Assembly: GCA_030037185.1 (NCBI GenBank)
Contig: JASHRR010001156.1
Span: 1-6,897 of the forward strand
Length of the DNA: 6,897 nucleotides
Source: Xanthobacteraceae bacterium
GTDB taxonomy: Bacteria; Pseudomonadota; Alphaproteobacteria; Rhizobiales; Xanthobacteraceae
Direction of reading: 5' to 3'
Below are positions 1-6,897 of this stretch, in pieces (within the stretch, counting starts at the first letter, position 1; every line of letters starts with the position of its first letter). A program made the position numbers and the translations under genes. The notes beneath the pieces were generated by a model. That model ran no database searches. It was given only the letters and a program-made list of their open reading frames with translations, and had not been told where the DNA came from.

Positions 1-104
1 TCGAGGTGGCGGATGCCCAGCCGGCCGCGACCTATTACGGTGTCGTAGTCGATAGTGCCACCAACGAGCCGTGCGGTACTTTGTCGGTGCGCATCCTGCC
101 TTAG
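1..104 (+). CDS. C-terminal end of an unrecognised protein (5' partial)
   Basis: An open frame enters from the left edge and ends at TAG 102-104. The visible tail is about 33 residues. It is rich in Val, Ala and Thr and contains TYYGVVVDS and a final LSVRILP. The alternating hydrophobic pattern looks like the closing beta strands of a globular domain, but I cannot assign a family. It ends 27 nt before the polyprenyl synthase ATG on the same strand, so it is probably the upstream member of the same transcription unit. That no promoter-sized gap follows it supports this. The frame choice rests on it being open to the edge and closely spaced to the next gene, so a chance open frame cannot be excluded over so short a stretch. 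Confidence 0.5.
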   Translation, partial: EVADAQPAATYYGVVVDSATNEPCGTLSVRILP

Positions 105-131: not shown

Positions 132-1166
132 ATGGAACAAGGTAAGGCCCCGACAGTGGTTCTTGAAACACTGGAAGAATACGGTGCCGTAACTCGCGCC
201 GCCATGAAGCCGTATTTTCCCGAGGGAAACCCGCGGCGACACTTATACGATTTGCTGCCGGAATATCCCTCGCGAGGAGGCAAGATGATGCGGTCCAGCC
301 TGTGTATCGCGACCGCGCGGGCCTTCGGCGCGAGCCTTGAGGACGCGCTTTATACCGCGGTGGCGATCGAGCTGATGCACAACGCCTTGCTGATTCATGA
401 CGACATCGAAGATGAGAGCGAGCAGCGGCGGGGCAGGCCCACGCTGCATGCTTTGCACGGGATTCCACTGGCGCTCAACGCGGGTGATGCGTTGACACTG
501 CTCAGCCTGCGTCCCTTGTTCGACAACTTCACCCGCATCGGCCCGCGGTTGGCCTATTCCATTGTCCGGGAAACCGAGCGCATGGCCTGGGAATCAGCGG
601 AAGGCCAGGCGATGGAGTTGGGATGGCGCAAGGACAATTGTAACAGCCTGAGCGACGCCGATTATCTCATCATGGTGCTGAAGAAGACGTGCTGGCTTGC
701 CTCCATCCATCCGAGCCGCGTCGGCGTGATGATCGGCACGCGCGATAGCACCGGTCTCGATCCCTTCAATCGCTTTGGGTTTTTTCTGGGCGCGGCCTTT
801 CAGATCCAGGATGATCTGCTGAACCTTGTAGAAGATGAGGCGTACGGCAAAGAGCTGAACGGCGACATTCTCGAGGGCAAGCGCACGCTCATGCTCAATC
901 ATGTTTACCGGCTGTCGTCGCGGCCGCAGCGCCAGCGACTGGCCGCGATTCTGGATTCCGAGCGCGAATTGCGCACGGCAGAGCAGGTTGGCTGGATCAG
1001 AGGGTTGATGGACGAATACGACTCGATCGCATATGCGCGCGGTATCGCGCATGGCCTCGCGGGAGCCGCCCTGCACGAATTCGCGTGCATTTATGACGTG
1101 TTGCCAAACTCACGCGATAAGCAGTTCATCCAGGGACTGGCGACCTGGATATTCCATCGGACGTGA
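132..1166 (+). CDS. Polyprenyl diphosphate synthase, geranylgeranyl-diphosphate-synthase-like
   Basis: This 344-aa all-alpha trans-isoprenyl diphosphate synthase should condense isopentenyl diphosphate with an allylic diphosphate in the cytoplasm. Seen: a substrate-binding GGKMMR at 49-54 (usual form GGKR.RP), the first Asp-rich motif DDIED at 90-94 followed by RRGRPT, a KKT motif at 185-187, and the second Asp-rich region FQIQDDLLN at 223-231 followed by YGKELNGD and EGKRT. The second motif is DDxxN rather than DDxxD, as in several eukaryotic-type and some bacterial GGPP synthases, so it need not impair activity. Ala85 and Leu86 lie 5 and 4 residues before the first motif, where aromatic residues normally limit products to C15. 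Their absence suggests C20 or longer (inference). Length fits the family. The ATG start has GAGAG 6 nt upstream. It is followed by the ADC-like gene after 85 nt, suggesting that its product feeds a local isoprenoid pathway. Exact chain length and symbol (crtE/ispA/ispB type) cannot be set from sequence alone. Confidence 0.93.
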   Translation: MEQGKAPTVVLETLEEYGAVTRAAMKPYFPEGNPRRHLYDLLPEYPSRGGKMMRSSLCIATARAFGASLEDALYTAVAIELMHNALLIHDDIEDESEQRRGRPTLHALHGIPLALNAGDALTLLSLRPLFDNFTRIGPRLAYSIVRETERMAWESAEGQAMELGWRKDNCNSLSDADYLIMVLKKTCWLASIHPSRVGVMIGTRDSTGLDPFNRFGFFLGAAFQIQDDLLNLVEDEAYGKELNGDILEGKRTLMLNHVYRLSSRPQRQRLAAILDSERELRTAEQVGWIRGLMDEYDSIAYARGIAHGLAGAALHEFACIYDVLPNSRDKQFIQGLATWIFHRT

Positions 1167-1251: not shown

Positions 1252-4200
1252 ATGCCGCGTAACTCAAAGCCCGAATACGTCGACCCGGGGAGAAAAGAAG
1301 CGATTTCGTTCAAGCCGCCCTTCCTGTTCCGCAATGTGACCGCACGTGTGTTTCCGCTCAAAGCGAATATGGCGCGGCTGACGCAATTCTGCGATCAATA
1401 CCTCAACATGGACATCCCGCCCGAAATTGTCCACTTCACACCGGCGCTGCCGTACGTTTATTTCACGGCGCTGAATTACGGCAGGATGTCTGCCGCGTCC
1501 TTACAGGCGCAAGGCCTCGGCTGGGTGGCGCAGCATGAGGTGTGCTTCACGGTAGTGCTTCAGCAATGGCGCAAAATCCACGGTAAACTGAAATTCCAGG
1601 ACTGGGCGACCGTCTCGCCTTTCATCTTCGTCGACGCCCCGATGTCGCAGACCACAGGGCGCGATGTCTATGGCTGGCCGAAGGTTCTGGCGCGCATCGA
1701 GCCCCACACGCCGCTGTGGGCTACCCATCCGCGTTCGCCGACGCGTTTGTTCACCATGAGCACGAAGATGTTCGGCCGTGTCTATGCGGGCGAGGACGAA
1801 AAATCGTGTGTTTTGGTAGAGGTCGATCGCGACCCTGCGGCCTCGTATGCCGAATTTCCACCCGACCTGAATTGTCCGTGGTCCGTCACCACTGCTGTGC
1901 CCAATCTCATTCGCAGTTCGCTTTCCTTGATGGGCGACGCGGCTGACATCGTTACGGGACTGCGCCTGCGCGGTTACCCGGCTGGCCGGGATCTCGGCGC
2001 CTTGCCGAGGATGGCCGGTATGGCCGGCAGCTATATCAGGCATATGCTGCCCGGAATGCTGCTGCCGTCTTTTGGTCAGCGCCGTTCGCCGGGGGACGAT
2101 CCGGACGGGGCCCGGGTGTCACTCGCCGGGACGGTTGAGTTGAACAAGCCACCGCTAAACGCGCGAACTATTAACCTGAAGCAATTTCGTGATGCGGAAG
2201 ACCCGAACCTCGCCTGCTATAAGGCGCTGGTGGAATCCGACATGGGCGTTGACAGGTTCAACGGCGGCGGGCTGCTGGGAGATTGGGATTTGCTCCGGGG
2301 CGATCCCTCCGGCGGCTATACGGTCCGCATTTATCGATACACAGCGCAACCGATCATGGAGTTGCTGGGGATCGCGGTGGACGACACCGAGCCAAACCCG
2401 AGCGAGGGGTCGGTGGCGATATTGAAGCCGAGCTTTCCATTCTGGTCCGACGTCGATTTGTATTATGGCGCCGGACAAGTGCTTTGCTCAAAGGCACGGA
2501 AAGGTCCTTGGTTTAATGAATTCAACCCAACGGATGCCCTGCACGACGGCGCCCGTCTCATCCCCGCGGACATTGTGTACAACGACACTCTCGGCGCCGC
2601 CACGCAGCCCGTCGTCGGACCTTTTCATTTTCCAGATGTGACGGTGCAGGTTTATCCATTGCTAGCCGACCAGGCGCGACTCAACGACTTCGTTGACGGT
2701 TATTTGAACAAGCTTTTCAAGCCACCAAGAGATGGAAAGCCGAAAATGAAATTTGAGACCATGGGGGCCTACGCCTATCTGATCGTCAATGTGATTGGCG
2801 ACAAGCGCGGCACTATGTGGTCAAGCAACAACAATATTGGCTGGTGGGCCGAGCGTGAGGTGTCGTTCTGTATACCGGTCAAGTGGTACGACGAACACGA
2901 TAAGCTGATCAGTCTCGCCATGATCGAACCGTTTGTCTACGCTAACAAAGACCGGGCCGTCATCACCGATCGCGAGGTCAACGGTCGCAATTCGGTCGTG
3001 GCGACCATTGATAGCCCGAACGATGTCTGGATGTCGCCAGACGGACCGGCCAGCGAACGCCGGCTTTTGCATGTGGCTACCCAAATCTTTCCGGCTTTGA
3101 ACTTGGGCCAGCGGGCGGAGGAGCGCAAGTTGATTGAAATTGATCAATGCGACGTGCTGCCGCCTGAAGACAAAGAGGGATGGCGCGGTATAGCGGCTAC
3201 CTGGGGACGCTTCCTCGTTGACGACCTGAAACGCAAGACTTGGCTGGCGTCCGCCCAGAGTCGACAATTGGAGGACGCCAAGGCCCTTGCGCTGGAGATC
3301 CTCGCGCATGGTGCGCCGATGAACCGGATCACCCTGAAGCAATACCGCGACGCCGATGAAGTGGATCATGCCTGCTATCAGGCGCTAGTACATACACAGC
3401 GTGCGATCACCCGCGTCTACGATATCCGCGAAATCCAAGACCGTGTGCATGTGCGACTCCATCAGGTCGCTGGCCATCCGATTGCCCAGGTGCTCGGTTT
3501 GAAAATCAAAAGCGTTCATTCAGCAGCCGGCAACGTGGTTGATATTCTTCAGCCAATCCGACCGTTCTGGATGCACATCGCGATGAAAGAAGAACTCGGA
3601 TCAATCATCGGTACGGTCGATCCCGCGATAGGGCAGGATTCGTCAAATGAAAAGCGGTATGGTAGAAACAGGGTGTGGAAGTTCAGCCACCCTTGGTTTG
3701 GCGGCGATCGGCTGGAGGCGGATGGGGAGACCGCACGACGGCCGGCCGGCGGGCCTTATTTCCTGGCGGATCAGGATACGAGGGTCGGCCGATCGTTGGG
3801 CGCCCACGATTGGCTGGGTTCCCGCGATCGCGGCGGTAACAACCCCTACATCGATCTGAAAGATCATGCGACGAAATGGTTGCGCAATTCCTGGACCAAT
3901 GAACTGGCCTGGATCAAAGTCAACGTAAAGCAAGACAGTTGGACCGATTCTGACCTGGACAAAATCAAACGTAAACTTGAAAAAATCAAACAAGAACGAA
4001 AAGAAACCTGGTCCCCGACGGCACGCTTCGATCCCGAGATGTTCACGCAGTTTTTGAAGATGGAAGCGTCGTCGATCAACGATTTCTGCGATGCCCTTTC
4101 GATCGAAAATATGGTGGCTCTGGCGCGGGCGGCGGCACTGGCGGACCTGGCGCCAGCACGTCCAAGTGCGGCGGAGGCCGCATCGAGCTCGCAGGCTGGT

Positions 4201-4878
4201 GGCGGGTTGCCAGCCCAGGCTGGGACGCTGATGGAAGATCTCGAGAAGATGGGAGACGTTCTGAAACAAAATTATGATCCATCTTCACAATCGGTCAAAG
4301 AAATATTGGACGGCCTGTTGACCAAGGATAAAAACGACTTTGAAACTTGGGCAAATAGTCCGGGGCTTTGGGATGAACGGTTTCGTGGCCTGCCCGAAAG
4401 ATCTCGTCTGGCGTGGATCAAAAGGTTGCCCGCGAGCATGTCGGAGGAAATCTCTAAAGTGTTGACTAAACACCCTCCTACGCCCGTCCATAGCGGGCCG
4501 TTCATGGAGTTCCCCGTCGTTACGGTATCGGACGAAAATCTATTCGCCGAAATAGCCAAGCTTATCGAGATGCTTCACGTGTACGATGATTGGAAAGACC
4601 CCTCGCGTTGGCAACGCCTGACTCCAAAGGCAGCGGGAGAGTCCATCCGAAAGCTTGAGGAAGTGCAGGTCGTCCTGGAGAGTATCCTCAGTTGCGCGTG
4701 GGAGAACCGGGACGAGAAGACATTGAGAGACTCGGAACCTGAGGACTCAAAGCTCGAACATCGTATTCCGACCGGATCGGTGGGCTCGGAAGGCGATGAG
4801 TGGTTTGAGAAACAGGGGCTCTGTAAATGGGAAGATGGAGATGGAGACAAGCGGTGGTGGATTGTTCCGGCTCAATAG
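1252..4878 (+). CDS. Giant tandem acetoacetate-decarboxylase-fold protein with unrecognised C-terminal extension
   Basis: This is a 1208-aa cytosolic-looking protein with no signal peptide or clear membrane helix. Single-domain ADC is about 245 aa. Residues about 23-406 and 458-793 are two diverged copies of an ADC-like domain. Each has an opening F.F..VT..V.P strand, a GW.A..EV strand (90-97 and 530-537) whose Glu (96, 536) aligns with ADC Glu76, an R-(D/E)-V-x-G segment, an LKQ(F/Y)RDA...ACY(K/Q)ALV block (309 and 695), and a final PFW segment. In copy 1, GWPKV keeps the Schiff-base lysine (Lys144, aligned with Lys115 of the Clostridium acetobutylicum enzyme), while the neighbouring Lys116 position is Val145. 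In copy 2 the equivalent is GRNSV, so lysine is replaced by Ser581. Copy 1 has about 50 extra residues, including a Gly/Met-rich stretch (248-275). Residues about 794-1208 match no family I know. ADC-fold membership is well supported; the reaction is not. It could be decarboxylation, or aldol-dehydration chemistry as in some family members. Its place between a prenyl synthase and an oxidoreductase hints at small-molecule biosynthesis. Confidence 0.85.
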   Translation: MPRNSKPEYVDPGRKEAISFKPPFLFRNVTARVFPLKANMARLTQFCDQYLNMDIPPEIVHFTPALPYVYFTALNYGRMSAASLQAQGLGWVAQHEVCFTVVLQQWRKIHGKLKFQDWATVSPFIFVDAPMSQTTGRDVYGWPKVLARIEPHTPLWATHPRSPTRLFTMSTKMFGRVYAGEDEKSCVLVEVDRDPAASYAEFPPDLNCPWSVTTAVPNLIRSSLSLMGDAADIVTGLRLRGYPAGRDLGALPRMAGMAGSYIRHMLPGMLLPSFGQRRSPGDDPDGARVSLAGTVELNKPPLNARTINLKQFRDAEDPNLACYKALVESDMGVDRFNGGGLLGDWDLLRGDPSGGYTVRIYRYTAQPIMELLGIAVDDTEPNPSEGSVAILKPSFPFWSDVDLYYGAGQVLCSKARKGPWFNEFNPTDALHDGARLIPADIVYNDTLGAATQPVVGPFHFPDVTVQVYPLLADQARLNDFVDGYLNKLFKPPRDGKPKMKFETMGAYAYLIVNVIGDKRGTMWSSNNNIGWWAEREVSFCIPVKWYDEHDKLISLAMIEPFVYANKDRAVITDREVNGRNSVVATIDSPNDVWMSPDGPASERRLLHVATQIFPALNLGQRAEERKLIEIDQCDVLPPEDKEGWRGIAATWGRFLVDDLKRKTWLASAQSRQLEDAKALALEILAHGAPMNRITLKQYRDADEVDHACYQALVHTQRAITRVYDIREIQDRVHVRLHQVAGHPIAQVLGLKIKSVHSAAGNVVDILQPIRPFWMHIAMKEELGSIIGTVDPAIGQDSSNEKRYGRNRVWKFSHPWFGGDRLEADGETARRPAGGPYFLADQDTRVGRSLGAHDWLGSRDRGGNNPYIDLKDHATKWLRNSWTNELAWIKVNVKQDSWTDSDLDKIKRKLEKIKQERKETWSPTARFDPEMFTQFLKMEASSINDFCDALSIENMVALARAAALADLAPARPSAAEAASSSQAGGGLPAQAGTLMEDLEKMGDVLKQNYDPSSQSVKEILDGLLTKDKNDFETWANSPGLWDERFRGLPERSRLAWIKRLPASMSEEISKVLTKHPPTPVHSGPFMEFPVVTVSDENLFAEIAKLIEMLHVYDDWKDPSRWQRLTPKAAGESIRKLEEVQVVLESILSCAWENRDEKTLRDSEPEDSKLEHRIPTGSVGSEGDEWFEKQGLCKWEDGDGDKRWWIVPAQ
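1318..2469 (+). repeat. ADC-like domain, copy 1 (lysine kept)
   Basis: This is the first unit of an internal duplication within the large gene. By motif alignment to ADC, the lysine codon at 1681-1683 (AAG) encodes the Schiff-base residue. The Glu76 equivalent is kept. The Arg29 and Glu61 positions appear to be Val29 and Thr72, which is less certain because that region is more diverged. The spacing from the lysine motif to the LKQFRDA block is about 165 residues, against about 114 in copy 2. The difference is an insert that includes the Gly/Met-rich stretch. Confidence 0.75.
2623..3600 (+). repeat. ADC-like domain, copy 2 (lysine lost)
   Basis: This second unit begins with GPF.F, like the GPYKF of classical ADC. 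It shares with copy 1 the V.PL.A...RL..F.D.YLN opening, GW.A..EV, R(D/E)V.G, LKQ(F/Y)RDA and PFW motifs in the same order. The catalytic lysine codon position, 2992-2994, is TCG (Ser). The preceding Trp-Pro is Arg-Asn. It probably cannot form a Schiff base, so a structural, dimer-mimicking or substrate-binding role is likely. The duplication is visible in protein but not as close DNA identity, so it is old. Confidence 0.75.
3601..4875 (+). other. Unrecognised C-terminal extension of the ADC-like protein
   Basis: About 425 codons follow the second ADC-like unit in the same frame. In order they hold a Gly/Arg/Asp-rich segment (about residues 803-865), a short Lys/Glu-rich helix that could form a coiled coil (KIKRKLEKIKQERKE, about 904-918), an Ala/Ser/Gly/Pro-rich linker (about 955-990), mostly helical charged sequence, and an acidic, Trp-containing tail (KRWWIVPAQ). 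GC content drops in places: 22 of 60 at 3961-4020 and 23 of 60 at 4261-4320, against 42 of 60 in the next gene at 5341-5400. No known domain is evident. It may mediate protein-protein contacts or be a separately acquired module. Confidence 0.6.
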
Positions 4879-4950: not shown

Positions 4951-6015
4951 ATCCCTGGCCACCTGCTGATCTACGGTGCCAGCGGCTACACGGGCCGGCT
5001 TCTCGCGGGCCACGCCCGCCTGCGCTGCATCAGCACCATCCTCGCGGGCCGGAGCCCGAGCCGAATGGAGTCCGTCGCGCGGGCATTGACCCTGCCATAC
5101 AAGGTGTTAGCACTGGAAAATCCACGCGAGCTGGACGCGGCGCTGCGTGACGTTACCGTCCTGATCAACGCCGCCGGGCCATTCGAAATCACCGCTCGGC
5201 CGATCGTGGAGGCCTGCCTGCGCACGGGTACGCACTACCTCGACGTTACCGGCGACCTGCCGATCTTGCAATATTTGCATGGCCTTGACCGGGCGGCGCG
5301 CGAGGCCGATGTTATGATCATGCCAGGCGCCGGCTTTGTCGTCGTGGCATCGGATTGCCTCGCGGCACATGTCGCGGCCCGCCTGCCGGACGCCCAATAC
5401 CTGTGGCTGGGTTTTTCGCGCGGCGACGCGATCTCACGCGGAAGCTTCACCTCTATGCTCGGTCTGATTGGCCAGGATGTGACCATACGGCGCGACGGGC
5501 GCCTGTGCACCGTTCCCATGGGGAGGCTGGAACGCGCGTTCGACTATGGTGGCGGCGGAAGACTCAGCATTGCGGTCCCCTGGCCCGACGCCTTTACCGC
5601 TTATTACACCACAAAAATTCCGAATATCGAGGGTTACCTGGAAGCCGATCTGTGCGCGCGGTCCGCCTCACAGATATCGTCGTTCTTCGCGGCGCCGCTC
5701 CGTCTCACGCCGGTCCGGAACCTGTTGACCCTGATGGCCCAGGCCTTGCCGGAAGGCCCGTCCGAGGCACAGCGCACGGCGACGCCCAAGGTGATCGTGG
5801 CTGAGGTGGAAGACCGGTATCGCCGGCGTGTTCGCGCCCGATTGCATACGCCGAATGTTTACACCTTCACGGCACTTGCGGCGCTCGCGATCGCGCAGCG
5901 TGTAGTCGATGGCGAAGCTCGGGCGGGTTTTCAAACCCCGGCCGCCGTTTATGGCCCGGACTTTATTCTGAGCTTTGAGGGCGTGCGCCGGGAAGAGATC
6001 ACCAAGCGTCGCTGA
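4951..6015 (+). CDS. Saccharopine-dehydrogenase-like NAD(P)-binding oxidoreductase (atypical start)
   Basis: This roughly 354-aa protein is of the saccharopine dehydrogenase NAD(P)-binding superfamily, the group that includes trans-acting enoyl reductases. Numbered from 4951, HLLIYGASGYTGR (4-16) is the first Rossmann strand and the GxxGxxG dinucleotide loop. AGRS follows after the second strand, LINAAGPF lies at 71-78, and ACLRTGTHYLDVTGD at 88-102 is a family hallmark. It is expected to act in the cytoplasm or at the membrane face as a hydride-transfer enzyme; the substrate is unknown. The start is odd. TGA at 4945-4947 closes the frame, and no ATG, GTG or TTG lies in frame before ATG 5065, which would delete the cofactor loop. 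ATC 4951, 8 nt after AGGAG, gives an initial MPGHLLIYG. CTG 4963 or 4966, or a one-base frameshift from GTG 4944, are alternatives. It lies 72 nt after the ADC-like gene and is likely co-transcribed. The family is certain; the start is not. Confidence 0.85.
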   Translation: MPGHLLIYGASGYTGRLLAGHARLRCISTILAGRSPSRMESVARALTLPYKVLALENPRELDAALRDVTVLINAAGPFEITARPIVEACLRTGTHYLDVTGDLPILQYLHGLDRAAREADVMIMPGAGFVVVASDCLAAHVAARLPDAQYLWLGFSRGDAISRGSFTSMLGLIGQDVTIRRDGRLCTVPMGRLERAFDYGGGGRLSIAVPWPDAFTAYYTTKIPNIEGYLEADLCARSASQISSFFAAPLRLTPVRNLLTLMAQALPEGPSEAQRTATPKVIVAEVEDRYRRRVRARLHTPNVYTFTALAALAIAQRVVDGEARAGFQTPAAVYGPDFILSFEGVRREEITKRR

Positions 6016-6059: not shown

Positions 6060-6897
6060 TCACGTCACTGCCAGCACACCCGCCAGGCGTTCGGCGTGAC
6101 CGGTGGCGCCGATCGCCCGATAGAGGTCCAGTGCTTGGCGCAACGCACGATCCGACGCCGCCGCGTCGCCAACGGCGCCCGCGAAGCGACCGCGGAGTTC
6201 CAGAATGCGGGGCAATAACGAGTGGCCTTCGATCGAGGCGACCAACTCCTCCGCTCGGTCGAGGGCAGCCTCGATCTCCGCTCGCGGCACCTGTGGTTCC
6301 ACCCCCAGCAACACTTGAGCTAGCGCGATCTGCGCGTGCGCTTCGAAATAGTAGCATCCACCCGCGCGTCCGAGATCGATGCCCTCACGCGCCGCTGCCA
6401 GGGCCTCGGTCCGTTCGCCCAGCGCGAGGTGCGCTTCCGCGAGCATGGCGAGAATCTGAGGGACAAGGGCAGCTAGTGTACCTCGATCACGCGCGATGGC
6501 GGCGCTAGTATGGAGTGATTCGCGTGCCCTGGTCGGTTGCCCTTCGGTTAAATAGGCGTTGCCGAAGGAAAAGTGTGCCAGGCTTCGGCACAAGTCGTTG
6601 TCGATCTGCTCCGCGACTTCGAGACACCGGCTGCTACGATCCAGAACTGGCCCAGGACCACCGCGTGTGTAAGCGAGCCAGGTCGAGACGTGAAGCGACC
6701 AATTCAGAACCTCGAAATCTCCCGGCACGTCGGCGATACGTATGGCCTCCTGGGCTTGACTTTCGGCCTCTTTCAATCGACCGAGATACATGAGGCCAAA
6801 CGTGCGGGCCGCAAGGGCGGCCGCGCGCGGGCTATAGCCGGTAATGGCCTTGCCCATGGAACTGTCCGATCCGACTTCGGCGAGGACGCGTTCCGAC
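6060..6897 (-). CDS. TPR-repeat C-terminal region of a large, probably regulatory protein (5' partial)
   Basis: The frame is open to the right edge, and 278 residues are visible before TGA at 6060-6062. The internal ATG at 6857 is not required as a start, because 13 more codons continue upstream to the edge. The sequence is almost wholly helix-turn-helix TPR-type pairs with A-LG-EA spacing: about residues 25-57, 105-135, 145-178, 185-222 and 230-265. The last unit, ALDLYRAIGATGHAERL, resembles the C-termini of AAA/NACHT-type ATPases with TPRs, adenylate-cyclase-linked ATPases and some LuxR-type regulators (family knowledge). An N-terminal signalling or nucleotide-binding domain outside the window is therefore expected but not seen. 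It converges on the oxidoreductase with 44 nt between stops, so it is probably a separate transcription unit. It could be a regulator of the neighbouring cluster or an unrelated boundary gene. Confidence 0.8.
   Translation of the reverse strand, partial: SERVLAEVGSDSSMGKAITGYSPRAAALAARTFGLMYLGRLKEAESQAQEAIRIADVPGDFEVLNWSLHVSTWLAYTRGGPGPVLDRSSRCLEVAEQIDNDLCRSLAHFSFGNAYLTEGQPTRARESLHTSAAIARDRGTLAALVPQILAMLAEAHLALGERTEALAAAREGIDLGRAGGCYYFEAHAQIALAQVLLGVEPQVPRAEIEAALDRAEELVASIEGHSLLPRILELRGRFAGAVGDAAASDRALRQALDLYRAIGATGHAERLAGVLAVT

Follow-up and report, generated by a model that had tools for sequence, protein, structure and literature searches.

The window, by which we mean the whole analysed stretch of 6,897 nt, begins on the plus strand with the tail of a small conserved protein (3..104), whose last residues before the stop are YYGVVVDSATNEPCGTLSVRILP; compared by eye only, this end resembles that of the small protein upstream of the polyprenyl synthase at the related loci L001 and L006. 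The next gene (132..1166, plus strand) codes for a polyprenyl diphosphate synthase (Pfam PF00348, E 7.5e-51), which reached 147.5 bits against an encapsulin-cargo model with a cut-off of 450 bits. It is followed by a gene for a protein of 1208 aa (1252..4878, plus strand), an open reading frame with at least 119 homologs besides itself. This protein comprises, on the plus strand, two domains with the predicted fold of acetoacetate decarboxylase (ADC), copy 1 (residues 22-420, 1315..2511) and copy 2 (residues 443-791, 2578..3624), and a variable C-terminal extension (residues 801-1208, 3652..4875) that has no Pfam match. Further downstream lie a gene for a saccharopine-dehydrogenase-like reductase (4951..6015, plus strand; Pfam PF03435, E 9.3e-11) and, on the minus strand, a TPR gene (6060-6857). 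The start of the reductase gene is uncertain: the first in-frame ATG, GTG or TTG occurs only at 5065, and a start there would trim the beginning of the matched nucleotide-binding domain. Searches for viral protein families, RNA families and tandem repeats gave nothing useful.

Small proteins of about 250-270 residues, often with a GTLxVxx-type tail, recur beside polyprenyl synthase or double-ADC genes (window 3-104; L001:8420-9169; L006:4136-4939; L004:16989-17801; L048:10501-11244). ORFs related to the small protein of L001 were detected by phmmer in L004, L005, L006 and L048, and a Pfam scan of the proteins from L001, L004, L006 and L048 gave no match.

Two ADC folds in one chain

The first-pass annotation had pointed to five motifs, F.F..VT..V.P, GW.A..EV, R(D/E)V.G, LKQ(F/Y)RDA and PFW, that occur twice in the same order. 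Both local and profile-profile alignment demonstrate that this repeat is real. The local alignment of copy 1 and copy 2 scored 239, compared to a mean of 35 and a maximum of 55 in 500 shuffles, which rules out a chance repeat, and the profile-profile alignment covered 343 columns with a probability of 100 and E = 2.6e-73. An assembly artefact or a frameshift is ruled out by the homologs of the protein and by its single open frame. Of the six 600-base blocks that are full, five have their highest or tied third-position GC in this frame; in the remaining one, at 3052, the frame ranks second.

A sequence search of solved structures with the double-ADC protein returned no relative up to E 1. The corresponding profile search, with E up to 10, gave six rows, all for the C-terminal part and the best with E 0.046 (1wgs); we read 1wgs and the other five as chance matches. 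Since no relative was found among solved structures by sequence, a fold search was needed. Predicted structures of both halves matched the ADC fold, so the objection that one half might not be an ADC fold finds no support in the models. The structural alignments to PDB 3bh2, which we take to be the acetoacetate decarboxylase of Clostridium acetobutylicum, had 10-13% identity, and the solved structures of the ADC superfamily that were matched by fold are small and single-domain. At the level of family models, NCBIfam has no family for the protein, and PF06314 scored 22.2 bits, below its gathering cut-off of 29.8, while a double-copy relative in L002 clears this cut-off with 31.9 bits. The profile of copy 1 matched three ADC fragments from the PDB with E 1.9e-4, yet with a probability of only 22%; the profile of copy 2 gave no match to the same fragments. 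Copy 2 is thus assigned to the ADC superfamily by its predicted fold and its homology to copy 1.

The C-terminal extension of about 400 residues belongs to no known family and is absent or of other length in relatives (0-534 aa among the best 120 of 140 matches). An ESILSxEWE-type motif is locally conserved in its consensus.

Lysine position and conservation of the two copies

The profile-profile alignment matches GWPKV in copy 1 with GRNSV in copy 2, which places Lys144 (codon 1681..1683, plus strand) opposite Ser581 (codon 2992..2994, plus strand), as had been proposed from the motifs. For comparison with 3bh2 we used Lys115, Lys116, Glu76, Arg29 and Glu61, which are active-site or pocket residues of ADC. 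In the alignment of copy 1 to the three ADC fragments (profile probability 22%), Lys144 lies over the Schiff-base Lys115, Val145 over Lys116, Glu96 (codon 1537..1539, plus strand) over Glu76, and Val29 over Arg29; the position of Glu61 falls in a gap. The Pfam match puts Lys144 in the same place, and so does an independent alignment that includes four ordinary ADC proteins. One ordinary ADC from the fetched genomes, when aligned to 3bh2, has its PKK motif at residues 114-116. Lys144 can therefore be assigned to the Lys115 position, as the earlier reading had it.

In a protein search 7994 candidates were scored, and the best 120 of 140 matches, including the window protein, were aligned. In these 120, the Lys144 column holds lysine in all 118 rows with a residue (2 gaps) and the Glu96 column glutamate in all 117 (3 gaps). 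At the Lys116 position, all 118 rows with a residue have V, A, I, M or T; the Arg29 position is occupied by V in 108, A in 4 and T in 2, with 6 gaps. The invariance of Lys144 and Glu96 argues for imine chemistry in copy 1, while the absence of Lys116 and Arg29 argues against plain decarboxylation of acetoacetate. Judged by these residues, the most likely chemistry of copy 1 is a Schiff base (iminium) to a substrate carbonyl, and an aldolase/dehydratase or another imine-chemistry enzyme is more likely than an acetoacetate decarboxylase.

Copy 2 behaves differently at this position. Among the same best 120 of 140 matches none has lysine there; the Ser581 column contains S in 64, T in 28, A in 24, I in 3 and V in 1. 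The pairing of a copy with and a copy without the lysine is thus real and family-wide. Whether another lysine of copy 2 might occupy the pocket had been raised at the outset. None lies at the aligned position, and this part of the expectation stands; it is less clear-cut two residues further on, since 31 of the best 120 of 140 matches have Lys, and 16 have Arg, in column 583 (Val in the window protein). Judging from the alignment, the lysine of column 583 is too poorly conserved to stand in for the catalytic one. Several other lysines of copy 2 are well conserved in these 120, namely K544 (95, with Arg in 21), K662 (107), K753 (103) and K677 (87), and K696, whose counterpart in copy 1 is K310, is Lys in 119 of 119 rows with a residue among the matches listed. 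The pocket glutamate of copy 2, E536, is kept in 109 of the best 120 of 140, and R574, E575, G578, W593, Y709 and W773 are near-invariant among the matches listed.

The overall conservation of the two copies is very similar. Among the matches listed, copy 1 and copy 2 had mean column entropies of 1.52 and 1.57 bits, against 2.60 bits in the C-terminal part, and median identity to the window protein was 54% for copy 1 and 56% for copy 2 (119 homologs each). Decay of copy 2 is ruled out by this equal conservation, and the view of copy 2 as a domain that lost the catalytic lysine and kept the fold agrees with all of these data. Its tight conservation argues that copy 2 has a job, and the fixed loss of the lysine together with the full conservation of the fold argues for a structural partner. 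Structure prediction gives a weak hint in the same direction: residues 131-140, just before Lys144, had a mean pLDDT of 85 with copy 2 modelled and 64 without it, and values also dropped for residues 231-250 (from 79-80 to 68-71) and 1-10 (from 71 to 61), in a comparison of one run each with slightly different alignments. This is only suggestive of a copy 2 that packs against copy 1 and orders segment 131-140.

Family history, distribution and gene neighbourhood

A wider set of 55 domains was assembled from 11 of the 120 proteins, 8 double-copy loci, 14 single-copy genes and 4 ordinary ADC proteins; copy 2 of L006 (at a contig end, its visible piece reading GWPM), L005 (a near-copy of L004) and the over-long ADC frame L042 were left out of the count. 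Lysine was present in 19 of 19 first copies, 14 of 14 singles and 4 of 4 ordinary ADC proteins, and in 0 of 18 second copies, which have V, M, T, S, I or A instead and, in some rows, R, Q, S or D at the glutamate position. In a quick tree with several long branches, copy 1, copy 2, singles and ordinary ADC were each set apart by a branch (SH-aLRT 93, 84, 97 and 100); of the first three branches, only that of the singles was starred. The data do not reject a single group made up of both copies (p-AU 0.65). This tree would fit a single duplication and a subsequent single loss of the lysine. Repeated independent losses were set aside because the second copies are split off together by one branch (support 84, unstarred); a single loss is simpler, though not proven.

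The double-copy family is rare among the sampled genomes. Few candidates were scored per genome in these scans, so the counts refer to genomes and not to genes. A double-copy match occurred in 1 of 385 genomes in the class of G001 and in 1 of 299 in its order, in both cases G001 itself. In the phylum of G002, a Thermoanaerobaculia MAG, 9 of 396 genomes matched at all, and only G002 has a double-copy gene; for this genome, two of 19 candidates were scored in the phylum scan versus all 21 in another scan. G002 carries four double-copy genes and one single (L021, L046/L013, L047/L027, L048/L029). Of 194 genomes in the phylum of G006 (Microcoleus), 6 matched, five by single-copy genes and one weakly to the C-terminal part.

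Of the 10 double-copy loci, 7 (window, L001, L003, L004, L005, L006 and L048) have a polyprenyl synthase homolog within the stretch that was fetched; L004 and L005 are close relatives. The three loci without it (L002, L046, L047) are all from G002, which has the synthase at L048, so that counted by genome or record the association is 7 of 7 (window, L001, L003, L004, L005, L006, G002). In 5 of 10 genome-contig loci the synthase homolog is 56-61% identical. A FAD enzyme of about 730 residues was found in 5 of 10 double-copy loci (L001, L003, L004, L005, L048); no FAD gene was seen in the window or L006, both short stretches, and the fetched stretches of L002, L046 and L047 hold neither a polyprenyl synthase nor a FAD gene beside the double-copy gene.

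For 12 of 14 single-copy genes, this FAD enzyme either occurs within the stretch fetched around the gene or is fused to it. The exceptions are the single gene of L002 and L052, and L050 has another frame separating the two. In one case (L054:2338-6471, minus strand = L008:4833-8966) both parts share a single 1377-residue open frame, in which the FAD match starts at residue 294 and that to a Lys-bearing ADC domain at about 1060, which suggests that FAD enzyme and ADC domain may work together. The best named models for the FAD enzyme were HpnE and zeta-carotene desaturase, both far below cut-off, and solved-structure searches with the FAD enzyme and with a single-copy relative gave nothing useful. 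Other neighbours of isoprenoid type, each at one locus, were a geranylgeranyl-reductase-family protein in L001 (188.9 bits, cut-off 158.8), a squalene/phytoene synthase in L010 (PF00494, E 1.2e-28) and a Rce1-like protein in L003; L048 has a methyltransferase. A homolog of the saccharopine-dehydrogenase-like protein adjoins the polyprenyl synthase in L001 only among the 10 genome-contig loci. Cyclase-, AAA- or TPR-related proteins lie by several single- and double-ADC loci (L004:12543-15842, L048:333-4109, L051:14446-18000 and others).

Function of the pair and relation to known ADC-like proteins

As a whole, the explanation that we somewhat favour is a Schiff-base copy 1 with a structural copy 2 acting on a carbonyl compound derived from isoprenoids. 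One old tandem duplication would have given rise to a single-chain pair of ADC folds. Copy 1, with Lys144 and the pocket Glu96, would form the iminium with the substrate carbonyl group, while copy 2 would have lost its lysine in a single event at the base of the family and been kept as a structural partner packing against copy 1, so that the chain may in itself be an asymmetric dimer with a single Schiff-base site. The substrate would be made from what the neighbouring polyprenyl diphosphate synthase produces and be processed jointly with the desaturase/dehydroxylase-like FAD enzyme found near relatives.

Because E536 is kept and copy 2 has conserved lysines of its own, copy 2 may instead have its own site. 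It could carry out acid-base chemistry without a Schiff base, as an isomerase, hydratase or lyase, and the chain would then be a two-step bifunctional enzyme. Conservation equal to that of copy 1, the retention of Glu536, the near-invariant residues from R574 to W773 and a small polar Ser or Thr at the lysine position in 92 of the best 120 of 140 matches are all in line with this. However, the V, M, I and A at the lysine position and the R, Q, S and D at the glutamate position in the wider set are unlike catalytic residues, and we consider a second active site unlikely. Alternatively, copy 2 could serve for binding or channelling, by holding the prenyl chain or as a docking site for the FAD enzyme or the polyprenyl synthase, in which case the pair would not mimic a dimer. 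The linkage to the polyprenyl synthase and the FAD-ADC fusion speak for such a role, but the single-copy relatives near the FAD enzyme have the lysine and manage without a copy 2, which argues that copy 2 is not generally needed for the partnership with this enzyme; we consider a binding or channelling role improbable. That neither copy is an enzyme, and the protein is a sensor or carrier binding a ligand through the ADC fold, might be suggested by the AAA/cyclase or TPR proteins near several loci. It is very hard to reconcile with Lys144 and Glu96, which are invariant wherever a residue is present among the matches listed, as catalysis would predict, and we give this reading hardly any weight.

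The family might form a new class of Schiff-base enzyme in bacterial isoprenoid metabolism, an obligate single-chain pair of an active and a lysine-less ADC domain that acts on a prenyl-derived carbonyl together with a dedicated polyprenyl synthase and FAD enzyme; we propose this class tentatively and regard it as rather doubtful. Titles and abstract starts in a full-text literature search revealed none on a link between ADC and isoprenoids or on such a protein; subscription papers are mostly outside this search, so that a prior description is possible. A search on hydroxysqualene dehydroxylase with polyprenyl synthetase returned nothing relevant. The gene context ties the ADC fold to isoprenoid chemistry and points to an uncharacterised gene cluster. 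Since each copy can be altered separately, a pair with and without lysine in one chain is a natural test of the role of an inactive partner.

Classical ADC has one domain per chain and is a homo-oligomer. With acetoacetate decarboxylase (EC 4.1.1.4; 3bh2; PF06314) the protein shares the predicted fold of both halves and the correspondences Lys144/Lys115 and Glu96/Glu76, but it has two folds per chain, lacks Lys116 and Arg29, and has isoprenoid genes as neighbours. The fold of the copies is also common to MppR (4jm3) and to the ADC-like aldolase-dehydratase of Streptomyces bingchenggensis (6eej, 4zbt), where the title of entry 4zbt names a pyruvate Schiff base complex and that of 6eej a covalent complex. 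The matched entries are single chains of about 260 residues, in contrast to the fused pair described here. PMC7820114 names MppR as an aldolase of the ADC superfamily. By its predicted fold and the aligned position of its putative Schiff-base lysine, copy 1 belongs to this ADC-like superfamily. A further comparison is with single-domain ADC-like proteins of Microcoleus, Nostoc and Azospirillum (L007, L009, L010, L011), which lie beside a FAD enzyme and whose fetched stretches contain no polyprenyl synthase homolog. They share the signature LKQFRDA..ACYQA and the lysine at the same place, but have only one copy, whereas the double-ADC protein has two. The double-ADC protein seems to be an unstudied enzyme that carries its own inactive partner, a variant within a known fold family.
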